Shown one piece after another: positions 6,120-27,306 of a DNA stretch of 42,304 nucleotides. The translations under genes and the position numbers were made by a program. The notes below the pieces were generated by a model that did not search any database, had not been told where the DNA came from, and saw only the letters and a list, made by a program, of their open reading frames with translations. The stretch covers positions 1-42,304 of the IMG/VR virus record IMGVR_UViG_3300028920_000135; one strand, written 5' to 3'. Source of the stretch: a virus. Position 1 is the first letter of the stretch. Every line of letters begins with the position of its first letter.

Positions 6120-6455
6120 TTAAAATTCACAATACATTTCCCTATTTTCTGATATTTCCTGCACAAACAAATTAGCCAACTTGCAATTTTCAACATCGCC
6201 GTCCAAATAGCACACCTCATATTGAGTAGGATTTTTAACTCTATCAAACAACCCACCTCTTACTGCTATGATTAAAGCTAATTCTACTTGTCTAGTCTTA
6301 GGCTTATCGCCTTCTCTATACTGAACGCTTGTCATTAGCCGACCATTCCGCATAGTAGCCTTCTTCGGCTTGTTATCCAGTCTGTAGACGATGCCGTTTC
6401 TGACATCTACGCCATTTTTCATCTGGTTGATTATATCAAACGTTTTCTTTGTCAT
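6120..6455 (-). CDS. HNH-fold-like protein lacking catalytic histidines
   Basis: 111 aa. The order of elements (GIVYRLDN, RQVELALIIAVRGGLF, then YEVCYLDGDVENCKLANLFV) mirrors phage HNH endonucleases of the VDHIDGNKLNNRLENL type. The usual histidines are replaced by V/E and Y here, so cleavage is doubtful. A DNA-binding protein derived from an HNH nuclease is my inference. It overlaps the radical SAM gene by four bases (ATGA) and shares its ribosome site pattern CGGTGAAAA with the PAPS-reductase-like gene. Confidence 0.45.
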   Translation of the reverse strand: MTKKTFDIINQMKNGVDVRNGIVYRLDNKPKKATMRNGRLMTSVQYREGDKPKTRQVELALIIAVRGGLFDRVKNPTQYEVCYLDGDVENCKLANLFVQEISENREMYCEF

Positions 6456-7306
6456 TTTTCACCGCACCCTTTGTAATCTTCAAATTTTTCACATTTTTTA
6501 AAAATGAATTTATTATTACACCATCTTGCTACTTTTTTTTGTAATTTATCTTTTTTGTTAAAAGGCATAACAAACGGATCAACTCCAAGCTCTCTCAACT
6601 TTATGATTCTATACAAATCCTCTTCGTGTGTACTCCAATATCCTATTAATACATAACACATTATTTTATATGGTTTTATGTGTTCACACATTTCTTTTAT
6701 TTTAGGCAACACATTTTCTTTCGGATTATCCCACGCTATGTGGATTTGTTTATAATGTTTTAATTTATTCAGCCAGTAAGCCTGTTCGCTTGTCATAATT
6801 CTTACGTCTACACCATGAAAATTAACTTTTTGATTTTTTTCTATCAAATAATCAATTGCTTTTTTCCATTCTGGATTAGCAAAGAAGTTATTGTCAAATA
6901 TTTCTATGTGTTTACCTTTTAAATTAAGTTCCATCGGTTCTACAGGATAAATATACCCTTCTTTTTCTCTAACTACGCAAAACGGACAGTTTCGTATGCA
7001 ACCTCTTGAAAAAAACTGTATCGAATAATCACAATTAGGATATATTGAATAATCCGGTTGACATTTTTCAATTTCATCTGGCAATTTACTTTGAATATCG
7101 TATCCTGTACCACCTTTTATAACTTCATCAGCATTGATGCAATAATTAATATCTTTTGTGAAATCAAACAATTTTGAAATATAAACTTTGTCAAATTTTT
7201 CAAAAAATGTATTAACCCATTTTGCATTTTCTCCATAATAAGTTTTTATTTTCATTAATGGCAATACAGGCATTTTGCTATCTAAATCAATCAATCCTAC
7301 TTTCAC
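6452..7306 (-). CDS. Radical SAM superfamily enzyme
   Basis: 284 aa. The [4Fe-4S]-binding CxxxCxxC is at C103, C107 and C110 (SRGCIRNCPFCVV). It follows an N-terminal part that opens like phage and prophage radical SAM proteins (MKVGLIDLDS...LMKI) and carries INADEVIKGGTGYD near 57-70. Downstream barrel strands follow (IEIFDNNF, VNFHGVDVRI, IHIAWDNP, YVLIGYWSTHEEDLYRI). The family cleaves S-adenosylmethionine to a 5'-deoxyadenosyl radical. The substrate of this phage branch is not established. It sits 14 bases after the PAPS-reductase-like gene, so the two may act on one substrate, for example a nucleotide or tRNA modification. Confidence 0.88.
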   Translation of the reverse strand: MKVGLIDLDSKMPVLPLMKIKTYYGENAKWVNTFFEKFDKVYISKLFDFTKDINYCINADEVIKGGTGYDIQSKLPDEIEKCQPDYSIYPNCDYSIQFFSRGCIRNCPFCVVREKEGYIYPVEPMELNLKGKHIEIFDNNFFANPEWKKAIDYLIEKNQKVNFHGVDVRIMTSEQAYWLNKLKHYKQIHIAWDNPKENVLPKIKEMCEHIKPYKIMCYVLIGYWSTHEEDLYRIIKLRELGVDPFVMPFNKKDKLQKKVARWCNNKFIFKKCEKFEDYKGCGEK

Positions 7307-7320
7307 ATTTCACCGTCCAA

Positions 7321-7995
7321 TTAGAATAATTTTAATTGTCTATTTTCACTTTTAAATCTTTTTTCAAGCTGTTCTAAAGTATAATCACTTCTAAAACTTC
7401 TTTCTGAAAACTTATCTAATATTTTCATTTTTTTCCAGTATTTAGGGTATACATTGTAAATAGTTCTAAGCTCTCCTATCCTTTGCAATGGACATAAAAA
7501 ACAACTTAATCTATCAAATTCTTCATATAATCCTGACCAATCAAAACCTTTGTTATAACAATATTCAAGTGCTTCTTTTTCTGTTATTTTCCATTCATAT
7601 AAAGGGTATTTTTTATATTCTGTAGGTTTATATCTTTTAGGTTCATCATAAGCAATTCCAATACATTCAATATAATTGTTTTTTTCATATTTTCCGTTCA
7701 AATACTTTTTTATTGGTTGAATTTTTAACAAAGTAGTACACCATCTATTTTTGAAATCGCTCCAATGATATTTTTTAATCCCTTCCTCAAATGTTATGTT
7801 ACCTCTTATTGTTGTAAATAATATCTCATTAGGTATGTAATCCTTAACTTTTTCAATATGCTTATACATTTCTTCAAATTCTGCTCCAACTACATCTGCA
7901 TAAACCACCTCGTTAATCTGTATGCCTTTTTCAATCATCATAAGAAGCATTGCTGTGCTGTCTTTTCCACCCGAAAAACTAACTATATTTGTCAT
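7321..7995 (-). CDS. PAPS-reductase-like (PP-loop) protein
   Basis: 224 aa. It opens with the PP-loop SFSGGKDST (residues 6-14), the nucleotide-binding motif of the adenylyl-transfer alpha hydrolases. C86 (RWCTTLLK) and a CxxC at 165-168 (CFLCPL) give the layout of DndC/PAPS-reductase-like proteins that may bind an iron-sulfur cluster. In bacteria relatives reduce PAPS or put sulfur into DNA (DndC). In phages the role is unknown. Directly upstream of a radical SAM gene. Sulfur insertion into nucleic acid is possible but there is no dnd set here. Confidence 0.82.
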   Translation of the reverse strand: MTNIVSFSGGKDSTAMLLMMIEKGIQINEVVYADVVGAEFEEMYKHIEKVKDYIPNEILFTTIRGNITFEEGIKKYHWSDFKNRWCTTLLKIQPIKKYLNGKYEKNNYIECIGIAYDEPKRYKPTEYKKYPLYEWKITEKEALEYCYNKGFDWSGLYEEFDRLSCFLCPLQRIGELRTIYNVYPKYWKKMKILDKFSERSFRSDYTLEQLEKRFKSENRQLKLF

Positions 7996-17181: not shown

Positions 17182-17224
17182 ATTAACCACTCCTTTTTTA
17201 TTTGTTTTCTTAACTCTCAATACT

Positions 17225-17253
17225 ATTATACACTATTTTAAGTGTAAAATCAA
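17225..17253 (-). promoter_or_regulatory. Main early promoter with palindromic operator
   Basis: On the minus strand TTGATT (17248-17253), 17 bases, TATAAT (17225-17230). The spacer contains an exact 18-bp palindrome, TACACTATTTTAAGTGTA (17229-17246). Half-sites ACACT or AGTGT recur at 17230, 17241, 17253, 17274 and 17308, spaced about 11-12 bases for the first three, so a protein could bind along one face. A bound repressor would cover the promoter. Confidence 0.8.
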
Positions 17254-17330
17254 CACTTTTATATAGTACAATTACACTATTTTATAGCACAATTAATAAT
17301 GTAATTTAGTGTGTTTTTTATACTTTTTTG

Positions 17331-17359
17331 TTGTTTTCAGTGAAAAAATGTAGTATAAT
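17331..17359 (+). promoter_or_regulatory. Plus-strand promoter of the 83-aa gene
   Basis: TTGTTT (17331-17336), 17 bases, TATAAT (17354-17359), seven bases upstream of GAGGTGAT for the ATG at 17378. It is divergent from the early promoter about 100 bases away. The 22 bases 17342-17363 recur exactly on the minus strand at 24478-24499. Confidence 0.75.
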
Positions 17360-17377
17360 ATAATCGAGGTGATTAAT

Positions 17378-17629
17378 ATGTTATCTGAAAATGATATCTT
17401 GTGTATATTAAATGATAAGAATGTTGACGAGTTAGTGTGTATCGTCAACGATATCAAAGAAAAGTCTTGGAATGGATTCACCAGAAAAGAAGATTTAATT
17501 GCCCATATTATTAATCACTATAGGTTTTATTGTAACATGAGATTTGAGATAAGATTGTCGCTGAAAGTTAGAATGAAATGCCACTGCGACGTTAAAAGAA
17601 TACAGAACATTGTAAGTTTGCATAAATAA
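17378..17629 (+). CDS. Plus-strand gene in the immunity position, 83 aa
   Basis: This is the only well-supported plus-strand gene. ATG at 17378 after GAGGTGAT; a GTG at 17369 in frame overlaps that site and is rejected. The N-terminal half is acidic and helical (SENDILCILNDKNVDELVCIV, FTRKEDLIAHIINHY) and faintly like small SAP/Rho-N helical modules. The C-terminal half is basic (RFEIRLSLKVRMKCHC). No HTH repressor is recognised. It lies where a lysogeny repressor would lie, divergent from the operator-bearing early promoter, so a regulator is the main hypothesis. Alternatively it is a moron or toxin-type gene linked to the adjacent small RNA. Confidence 0.65.
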   Translation: MLSENDILCILNDKNVDELVCIVNDIKEKSWNGFTRKEDLIAHIINHYRFYCNMRFEIRLSLKVRMKCHCDVKRIQNIVSLHK

Positions 17630-17647
17630 ATATTTGCAATAAAAAAA

Positions 17648-17676
17648 TTGACAAACAAAGCATAATATGATATAAT
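17648..17676 (+). promoter_or_regulatory. Perfect consensus promoter of the small RNA, with A-rich upstream element
   Basis: TTGACA (17648-17653), exactly 17 bases, TATAAT (17671-17676) on the plus strand. An AT-only tract with runs of A (about 17626-17647) lies directly upstream of the -35 and looks like an UP element. Part of that tract is a 22-base copy of the start of the 58-bp repeat. No coding start with a good ribosome site follows. Confidence 0.88.
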
Positions 17677-17682
17677 TATATT

Positions 17683-17778
17683 AATTAAAAATTTAGGGCA
17701 ATGTTTTTTCATTGTCCAACATCTCAAGACTGTAATTTCCAGGTTGGTCGCCAGGATGAAATTACAGTCTTTTTGTTT
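17683..17778 (+). ncRNA. Candidate small RNA of two hairpins
   Basis: The predicted transcript starts about 17683 and ends in the T-run near 17774-17778, so about 95 nt. Hairpin 1 pairs GGGCAATG (17696-17703) with CATTGTCC (17710-17717) around six T. A short single-stranded linker (ACATCTC region) follows. Hairpin 2 is a 14-pair perfect stem (17726-17739 with 17758-17771) with an 18-base loop containing CCAGG twice. A 27-codon ORF (ATG 17701 to TAA) overlaps both hairpins but has only AGGG three bases away. An RNA product seems likelier than a peptide. I do not recognise the RNA family. Confidence 0.65.
17726..17775 (+). terminator. Strong Rho-independent terminator of the small RNA
   Basis: AAGACTGTAATTTC pairs perfectly with GAAATTACAGTCTT (14 pairs) and is followed by TTTTT then GTTT on the plus strand. 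There is no comparable T-run in the other direction, so it acts on plus-strand transcripts: the small RNA and any read-through from the 83-aa gene. Confidence 0.85.
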
Positions 17779-17785
17779 GCATAAA

Positions 17786-17809
17786 TAAAAAAGGCGAATT
17801 GCTCCGCCT
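17786..17809 (-). terminator. Terminator of the DUF3102 operon
   Basis: On the minus strand an AGGCG/CGCCT stem (17792-17809, eight-base loop) is followed by five T, A and three T. The TAG of the upstream gene (17808-17810) is in the stem. It faces the small-RNA terminator, so the two convergent units are insulated from each other. Confidence 0.8.
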
Positions 17810-19285: not shown

Positions 19286-19430
19286 ATTTCACCTCCAATT
19301 CTTCTTTAATGAAATATTCTGATAATGCAATATTAACAATTGCAGATTCAGATACACCTTTAATTTTGGACATTAATCCTAGATTTTTTTTAACATCATC
19401 CTTTAATGTCGCTTATAACTTCTTTGACAT
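19263..19430 (-). pseudogene. Ribbon-helix-helix gene with an early in-frame stop
   Basis: After a perfect GGAGGTG site the frame reads ATG-TCA-AAG-AAG-TTA-TAA (stop at 19413-19415). It then stays open for 49 more codons to a TAA at 19263: ATLKDDVKKNLGLMSKI then KGVSESAIVNIALSEYFI. That is a typical ribbon-helix-helix layout. A single C-to-T change (CAA to TAA) at codon 6 would explain it. The next in-frame ATG (codon 20) would lose the DNA-binding strand. Either a dead repressor, a sequencing error or an unusual re-initiation. Confidence 0.7.
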
Positions 19431-19470: not shown

Positions 19471-19499
19471 ATTATATCACTTTGTGGCAACTATGTCAA
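19471..19499 (-). promoter_or_regulatory. Perfect consensus promoter of the DUF3102 operon
   Basis: On the minus strand TTGACA (19494-19499), 17 bases, TATAAT (19471-19476). Near-direct repeats TAGTTGCCACAA and TAGTAGCACAA flank the -10 and could be operator sites for the adjacent ribbon-helix-helix protein. The -35 begins two bases beyond the 58-bp repeat. Confidence 0.85.
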
Positions 19500-19501
19500 G
19501 A

Positions 19502-19559
19502 AAGTATATAAATATTTGCAATAAAAAAAGCCTCCTAAGAGGCTAATTTGCTTTTTTGT
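19502..19559. repeat. 58-bp direct repeat, copy 2
   Basis: Identical to 1-58. It spans the terminator of the fibre gene and the AT-rich stretch leading to the DUF3102 promoter. A 22-base part (ataaatatttgcaat plus seven A) also occurs at about 17627-17648, before the small-RNA promoter. Confidence 0.95.
19523..19544 (-). terminator. Rho-independent terminator of the late operon
   Basis: On the minus strand AGCCTC/GAGGCT (19529-19544, loop TTAG) followed by seven T (19523-19529). It lies 35 bases after the stop of the fibre gene and closes the late transcript. Confidence 0.88.
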
Positions 19560-24465: not shown

Positions 24466-24477
24466 TACATCACCCAC

Positions 24478-24499
24478 TTATATTATACTACATTTTTTC
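24478..24499 (-). repeat. 22-bp inverted copy of the plus-strand -10 region
   Basis: The minus strand here carries GAAAAAATGTAG then TATAATATAA, the same 22 bases as 17342-17363 on the plus strand. It contains TATAAT but no good -35 is found 17 bases upstream. It overlaps the 3' end of the NlpC-like gene and ends just before the ribosome site of the gp37-like gene. Confidence 0.7.
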
Positions 24500-26338: not shown

Positions 26339-26812
26339 CTACAATATTTTCTCAATCTTCTCTATCCCATCAAGTATGTTTGTTGACGTATCAGTTGTAT
26401 AGCCTAATGAACTGAATAATATAACCATATCGTATACTCTTGAGTCAGATAATTTAATCTCATTTTCAGCCATTGCATAGTATTCTGCTTTTGCTCGTGC
26501 CAATTTAACTTTAATTTTTCTATCTATATCAACAGGAAAGTCAAGTGTTTCTAATATGTATACTCCCTCATCGTTAATAAATTTTCTAAGAAAATCTGCT
26601 TTTGTATATGTAAATTTTTTATTTATATTTTCAGGATAGACTTTATAATAGTTTTCTTCTATATCTACTACACATTTTTTATTTAAAAGAAAATCTTTTT
26701 CTACCTCTATACCATTTAAAAAATATTTAATTTCTTTATCTTTCACTAAATTCCATTTTTGTTTTGTTATATCTAAATTCAATACATCAAGATTACTATT
26801 CACTTTATACAT
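26339..26812 (-). CDS. Hypothetical tail-region protein, 157 aa
   Basis: An alpha/beta protein with an acidic strand-rich N-terminal half (SNLDVLNLDITKQKWNLV, KYFLNGIEVEKDFLL) and a helical C-terminus (IKVKLARAKAEYYAMAENEI). Its start overlaps the stop of the upstream gene by one base, site GGGAGTGAT. Located among baseplate genes; a structural or chaperone role for the papain-like protein or the fibres is possible. No family recognised. Confidence 0.55.
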   Translation of the reverse strand: MYKVNSNLDVLNLDITKQKWNLVKDKEIKYFLNGIEVEKDFLLNKKCVVDIEENYYKVYPENINKKFTYTKADFLRKFINDEGVYILETLDFPVDIDRKIKVKLARAKAEYYAMAENEIKLSDSRVYDMVILFSSLGYTTDTSTNILDGIEKIEKIL

Positions 26813-27306
26813 TAAGCATCACTCCCGTATTCTATTTCATAATTTATGGTATTTCCAGAAACAGTAGTTTGTTTAGCCTCAATTTGTAATGAATTTGAAA
26901 AATATAAAGGTTGAGTTATTCTTGAGCAATATTGACCAGCACCAGTGTAGGGTAACCCTACAATACCAATGCCTATCCCACTATAAGTTGTGAGACCTGG
27001 ATTTATAGGTCTTTCATATGAAGTGCTTGTTCCTGCATTATTAGTAGAATATATTCCAGCTATATCAGGAGTACCATCAGAATAACCTTCATATTTTATA
27101 ACACCATCTATTGTTATTTTTATAAAACTATTTACTGATGAGTTAGGTTTTAATATTGATAAAGATAAAAACCCAGACCCTGATATATTTAATAAATCTT
27201 CATATGTATTATCTACAGATAAAGACACAGAATTTTCTACAATCCTTGTTAAAGGATAATTTGTAGGATTAAAACCCTCCGCAGACGGTATCTGAGTTAT
27301 TCCCAT
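26812..27306 (-). CDS. Beta-rich baseplate or receptor-binding-type protein, 164 aa
   Basis: Low charge with many Gly, Ser, Thr and Asn and jelly-roll-like strands (ENSVSLSVDNTYEDLLNIS, SFIKITIDGVIKYEGYSDG, INPGLTTYSGIGIGIV). Composition and place suggest a virion tip protein. A strong AGGGGGTG site. A host-recognition role is plausible but not shown. Confidence 0.6.
   Translation of the reverse strand: MGITQIPSAEGFNPTNYPLTRIVENSVSLSVDNTYEDLLNISGSGFLSLSILKPNSSVNSFIKITIDGVIKYEGYSDGTPDIAGIYSTNNAGTSTSYERPINPGLTTYSGIGIGIVGLPYTGAGQYCSRITQPLYFSNSLQIEAKQTTVSGNTINYEIEYGSDA

Follow-up and report, generated by a model that had tools for sequence, protein, structure and literature searches.

The window analysed here, a whole stretch of 42,304 nucleotides with 31% G+C, carries the genes of a tailed phage, including those for a tape measure, Dit, a major tail protein and HK97-type head proteins. 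Clostridia and other Firmicutes hold most of the relatives of its DnaD-like loader, which makes a Gram-positive host, a Firmicute, probable. The genes scanned, a subset of those on a contig that may be incomplete, included no recognisable integrase or repressor. A 58-bp perfect direct repeat (1–58 and 19502–19559), consisting of a terminator (AGCCTC..GAGGCT) and an A/T-rich tract, begins at the first base of the contig. The contig probably broke at this repeat, and its left end may thus have arisen in assembly and not be a true terminus of the genome. Beside the replication genes, an accessory pair at 6452–7995 (−) encodes a radical-SAM protein and an adjoining PAPS-reductase-like protein.

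Within this genome, a unit composed of a promoter, a predicted RNA and a terminator occupies a true intergenic gap, with an 83-codon open reading frame (ORF) on one side and a convergent − strand operon on the other (Table 1). The last gene of that operon encodes an orphan protein of 193 amino acids and lies behind a gene for a DUF3102 protein. The sequence-only reading had set the RNA on the strand opposite to the whole phage. This holds for nearly all genes, which lie on the − strand, but was overstated: the ORF, with its ribosome site, lies immediately upstream on the + strand, and the isolation of the RNA from other + strand genes is therefore doubtful. The end of the ORF lies 18 nt upstream of the −35 element of the RNA promoter, with no terminator in between. 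At −0.07, its codon-usage score is the lowest among the intact ORFs tested (median 0.27), which leaves two possibilities: a foreign accessory gene or no gene at all. PADLOC matches it weakly to AbiEii (E 0.0055). When the ORF and the 193-amino-acid protein were used as synteny anchors, no homologues were found, and the single-sequence folds of both were too poor for searching. An A/T-rich 15-bp direct repeat flanks the promoter–RNA–terminator unit and, on one reading, insertion of the unit into the 3′ end of the ORF may have duplicated these 15 bp. Ahead of the ORF, the 21-bp stretch AAAAAATGTAGTATAATATAA (17343–17363) is shared with positions 24478–24498, before the tail gene with its start at 24477 (−); being promoter-like, it possibly marks a second promoter class of the phage. 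The divergent region between the + strand ORF and the leftward early genes is occupied by operator-like repeats (17221–17310) that include a 21-bp tandem pair (17253–17294), two occurrences of TACACTATTTTA and one inverted repeat. The motif AGCACAAT(A/T)A is found again at 649 (+) and also immediately past the −10 element of a promoter at 19499.

Table 1. Features at and around the predicted small-RNA gene
Feature	Position	Strand	Remarks
83-codon orphan ORF with good ribosome site GAGGTG	17378–17629	+	Codon usage unlike that of the phage
15-bp direct repeat GTTTGCATAAATAAA, left copy	17616–17630	+	Overlaps the end of the 83-codon ORF
A/T-rich 25-bp repeat adjoining the −35 element on its upstream side	17623–17647	+	Further copies at 4–28 and 19505–19529
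Perfect promoter of the sigma-70/SigA type: TTGACA-N17-TATAAT, extended −10 (TGn)	17648–17676	+	12/12 consensus matches
Predicted non-coding RNA, about 96 nt	17683–17778	+	Start (A at 17683) inferred from the distance to the −10 element
Hairpin 1: 8 pairs, loop U6	17696–17717	+	
Linker AACAUCUC, 8 nt, largely unpaired	17718–17725	+	
Terminator hairpin: perfect 14-pair stem and G+C-rich loop of 18 nt, followed by TTTTTGTTT	17726–17778	+	
15-bp direct repeat GTTTGCATAAATAAA, right copy	17775–17789	+	At the terminator's end
Terminator of the convergent − strand operon	17792–17809	−	

The promoter named in the sequence-only reading is present without a mismatch. Four perfect promoters of this form occur in the 42 kb, against 0.014 expected per window under a first-order Markov model of the 31% G+C sequence with a 17-base spacer and both strands counted. 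The other three, at 19499, 12185 and 4490, are all on the − strand and each has a good ribosome site just downstream, so the sequence at 17648 looks like a promoter type that the phage really uses. To the earlier description we add the TGA that precedes TATAAT, which makes this a full-consensus extended −10 promoter. The A/T-rich 25-bp tract in front of it is a possible UP element; both further copies of this tract lie right behind − strand terminators, and the copy at 19505 also adjoins the promoter at 19499. The first ORF behind the 19499 promoter (19286–19430, −) contains an in-frame stop at codon 6 (MSKKL*ATLKDDVKKNLG...), and its product resembles, as judged by eye, a small CopG/Arc-type protein; the gene may be broken or its stop recoded, or the sequence may contain an error.

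The predicted RNA opens with a leader of 13 unpaired A/U-rich bases, followed by hairpin 1, the linker and a terminator stem with perfect arms (17726–17739 and 17758–17771) that runs into UUUUUGUUU (TTTTT, the U-run). This layout of an 8-pair hairpin, a short linker and a perfect 14-pair stem had been described before and is borne out by the folding analysis: the fold of 17683–17778 has an energy of −32.2 kcal/mol, compared with a shuffle mean of −14.8 kcal/mol (s.d. 3.0; z = −5.8), and was equalled by 0 of 200 shuffles. Each hairpin is significant alone (z = −5.1 for the 5′ part with hairpin 1; z = −4.1 for the terminator hairpin). The 14-pair stem exceeds in length every other perfect short-loop inverted repeat of the window, and simulated sequence totalling 3 Mb yielded no 14-pair case. 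Its loop, CAGGTTGGTCGCCAGGAT, has a G+C content of 11/18 in a genome of 31% G+C and exceeds the needs of a plain terminator, and the linker is a candidate pairing seed. An open frame of 27 codons (17701–17784) is also present and could specify a 27-residue peptide; however, its AUG is weak, is buried in hairpin 1 and lacks a proper ribosome site, and its stop codon (17782–17784) lies past the T-run of the terminator. A terminated transcript would thus have no stop codon, which makes coding by this ORF very unlikely. A bad fit had previously been noted for this frame, and we give the peptide a next to negligible probability. With its own promoter directly upstream, an intrinsic 3′ terminator, significant folding and no credible ORF, the stretch from 17648 to 17778 is, by sequence criteria, a well-made small-RNA gene, and it is a singleton.

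Searches of Rfam, at the gathering score and at E values up to 10, gave no convincing family for the predicted RNA, in agreement with the earlier statement that no family with this layout was known. The best match, SdsR (21.4 bits, where the cutoff is 38), looks like a chance hairpin fit, as does a match to MIR477. BLASTN of the RNA locus against phages and plasmids gave no homologue. In IMG/VR, exact-pattern searches with an 18-mer of the terminator loop gave four matches (three on contigs of 65–76% G+C and one on a contig of 54% G+C), none of which has the structure. An 18-mer of the linker gave 11 matches, most of them one recurring sequence of 40–43% G+C, and none folds alike; patterns for a 28-mer and for the stem with a variable loop gave no matches. 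BLAST against three overlapping samples of Firmicutes (draws of 398, 299 and 398 genomes) returned only fragments of 25–75 nt, which mostly covered the A/T-rich promoter. Among 398 genomes, hairpin 1 was matched by a single repeated, IS-like sequence, present in two genomes as eight copies, and by one unrelated sequence, about the number expected by chance and with no CRISPR-like array. As synteny anchors, DnaB yielded no confirmed relatives and Erf yielded relatives that were only 35–44% identical; in the 88 loci retrieved, a counterpart of the RNA region was absent. The IMG/VR and genome scans depend on exact seeds and may omit the records nearest to the window, such that unseen close relatives could exist. 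As no homologue was found in the collections searched, conservation speaks neither for nor against a function of the RNA.

Pairing with the transcripts of the phage itself was also evaluated. For the accessible parts of the RNA, 19–52% of shuffles paired as well with phage start regions (99% for the 5′ tail), and none of the phage's own start regions pairs with these parts clearly better than shuffled controls. When the full RNA was taken as unfolded, pairing with the start of the tail-region gene 26812–27306 reached −38.4 kcal/mol and was equalled by 2 of 150 shuffles, a figure that is one result after several tests. This pairing requires the opening of hairpin 1, and co-folding gives a net gain of about 2 kcal/mol. 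We consider it a weak lead.

Several known phage RNAs offer points of comparison. The sar RNA of P22 and the c4 RNAs of P1 and P7 are short structured antisense RNAs that act in phage immunity and antirepressor control. The RNA described here is likewise short and structured, but is predicted to lie between, rather than over, neighbouring transcripts and has no c4-type match in Rfam. Overlap with or complementarity to a neighbouring mRNA, as in sar, sas and c4, was not found, given the position of the RNA between convergent genes. As far as predicted mRNA ends allow this judgement, the terminator of the − strand operon (reading from 17809 to 17792) precedes the 3′ end of the RNA (about 17778), and the predicted RNA is therefore not antisense to the operon. 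Trans-acting small RNAs encoded by phages, such as SprY, AgvB, StxS and others, have been reviewed (PMC12197685); these are similar in being short phage-borne non-coding RNAs with hairpins and candidate unpaired seeds, although no sequence relation to the RNA at 17683–17778, here predicted from sequence alone, was found. RCd22 of the AbiF system (PMC12373285) is a phage RNA of the protein-binding type, of similar size class and with its own promoter. Together with the abiF RNA motif (RF03085), it shares with our candidate a length of about 100 nt, a SigA promoter, hairpins and a terminator; in contrast, neither the RF03085 motif nor an adjacent AbiF-type (Abi_2-type) toxin gene was recognised at the locus. 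RacrIF1 (PMC10651486) is likewise a phage RNA of similar size class made from its own promoter. Racr RNAs, or solitary CRISPR repeat units, resemble the present case in their intergenic phage location and in a small RNA that directly follows a strong promoter. They differ in that no CRISPR-repeat family was matched here, in a comparison that covered the Rfam families, and in that arrays of hairpin 1 were absent from the genomes sampled.

The far-above-chance promoter, the two hairpins, the U-run, the absence of a credible ORF and the intergenic gap all favour a non-coding RNA. The earlier interpretation of a strongly transcribed, structured and non-coding RNA is well supported by these sequence statistics, whereas the roles offered with it (regulator, decoy or lysogeny-linked transcript) found no confirmation, and no phage start region pairs convincingly. 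We favour, with somewhat less than even confidence, a free-standing phage gene for a non-coding RNA of about 96 nt that would most likely act through base pairing in trans. Transcription by host RNA polymerase, carrying its housekeeping sigma factor, would start near 17683 from the near-ideal promoter and would stop at the 14-pair hairpin and U-run, both steps being strongly supported predictions. The same terminator would also end any readthrough from the upstream 83-codon ORF, such that the RNA could additionally accumulate as the 3′ end of the ORF transcript. Base pairing in trans through unpaired bases is the most ordinary action of such RNAs; here, the linker, the U6 loop of hairpin 1 and the G+C-rich terminator loop would serve as accessible seeds for a target RNA that is probably in the host.

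The same features could instead form a transcription-control device, in which the terminator ends the transcript of the + strand ORF, polymerases at the promoter hold readthrough from the − strand operon off the + strand unit (transcriptional interference) and the short RNA is a by-product. The position between convergent units, right beside the terminator of the − strand operon, would suit such a device, as would a terminator built on the longest perfect stem in the window and the fact that neither a conserved RNA nor a clear target was found. A barrier, however, has no need of hairpin 1, which alone reaches a z score of about −5, or of a G+C-rich 18-nt loop, and we regard this explanation as unlikely. 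A protein-binding RNA (serving as a decoy, as an anti-defence RNA, RNA antitoxin or CRISPR-repeat mimic, or to soak up a host RNA-binding protein) is suggested by the size, strong promoter and hairpins, which recall RCd22/AbiF (PMC12373285) and RacrIF1 (PMC10651486), and by the foreign codon usage of the 83-codon ORF, as is often seen with accessory cassettes. This role is unlikely, given that the CRISPR-repeat and abiF families of Rfam are unmatched, that no toxin or defence family was recognised adjacent to the RNA (the AbiEii match of the ORF being weak) and that hairpin 1 arrays are absent in 398 genomes.

Two further explanations tie the RNA to the 83-codon ORF. As a 3′-UTR-type RNA, it would arise through an internal promoter and mRNA processing and would act with or on the ORF product, consistent with an ORF that ends just before the −35 element without its own terminator and with a 15-bp repeat that starts in the ORF end and recurs at the RNA end. 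On the other hand, the ORF may not be a gene—it has no homologue, a non-phage codon usage and a poor single-sequence fold—which leaves this origin decidedly unlikely. It would be a long shot to take the RNA and the foreign-looking ORF as a two-part accessory cassette marked by the 15-bp repeat, in which the RNA would be active, as a decoy or antitoxin, against host defence; if true, this would represent a new RNA-based counter-defence or toxin–antitoxin family.

Our preferred reading remains a free-standing gene for a trans-acting non-coding RNA. As a singleton, this RNA settles no larger question at present. Should it be transcribed, this unstudied phage would possess a strongly expressed non-coding gene of a kind that is missed by protein-based annotation, and the small set of phage RNAs outside enterobacteria would gain a candidate.
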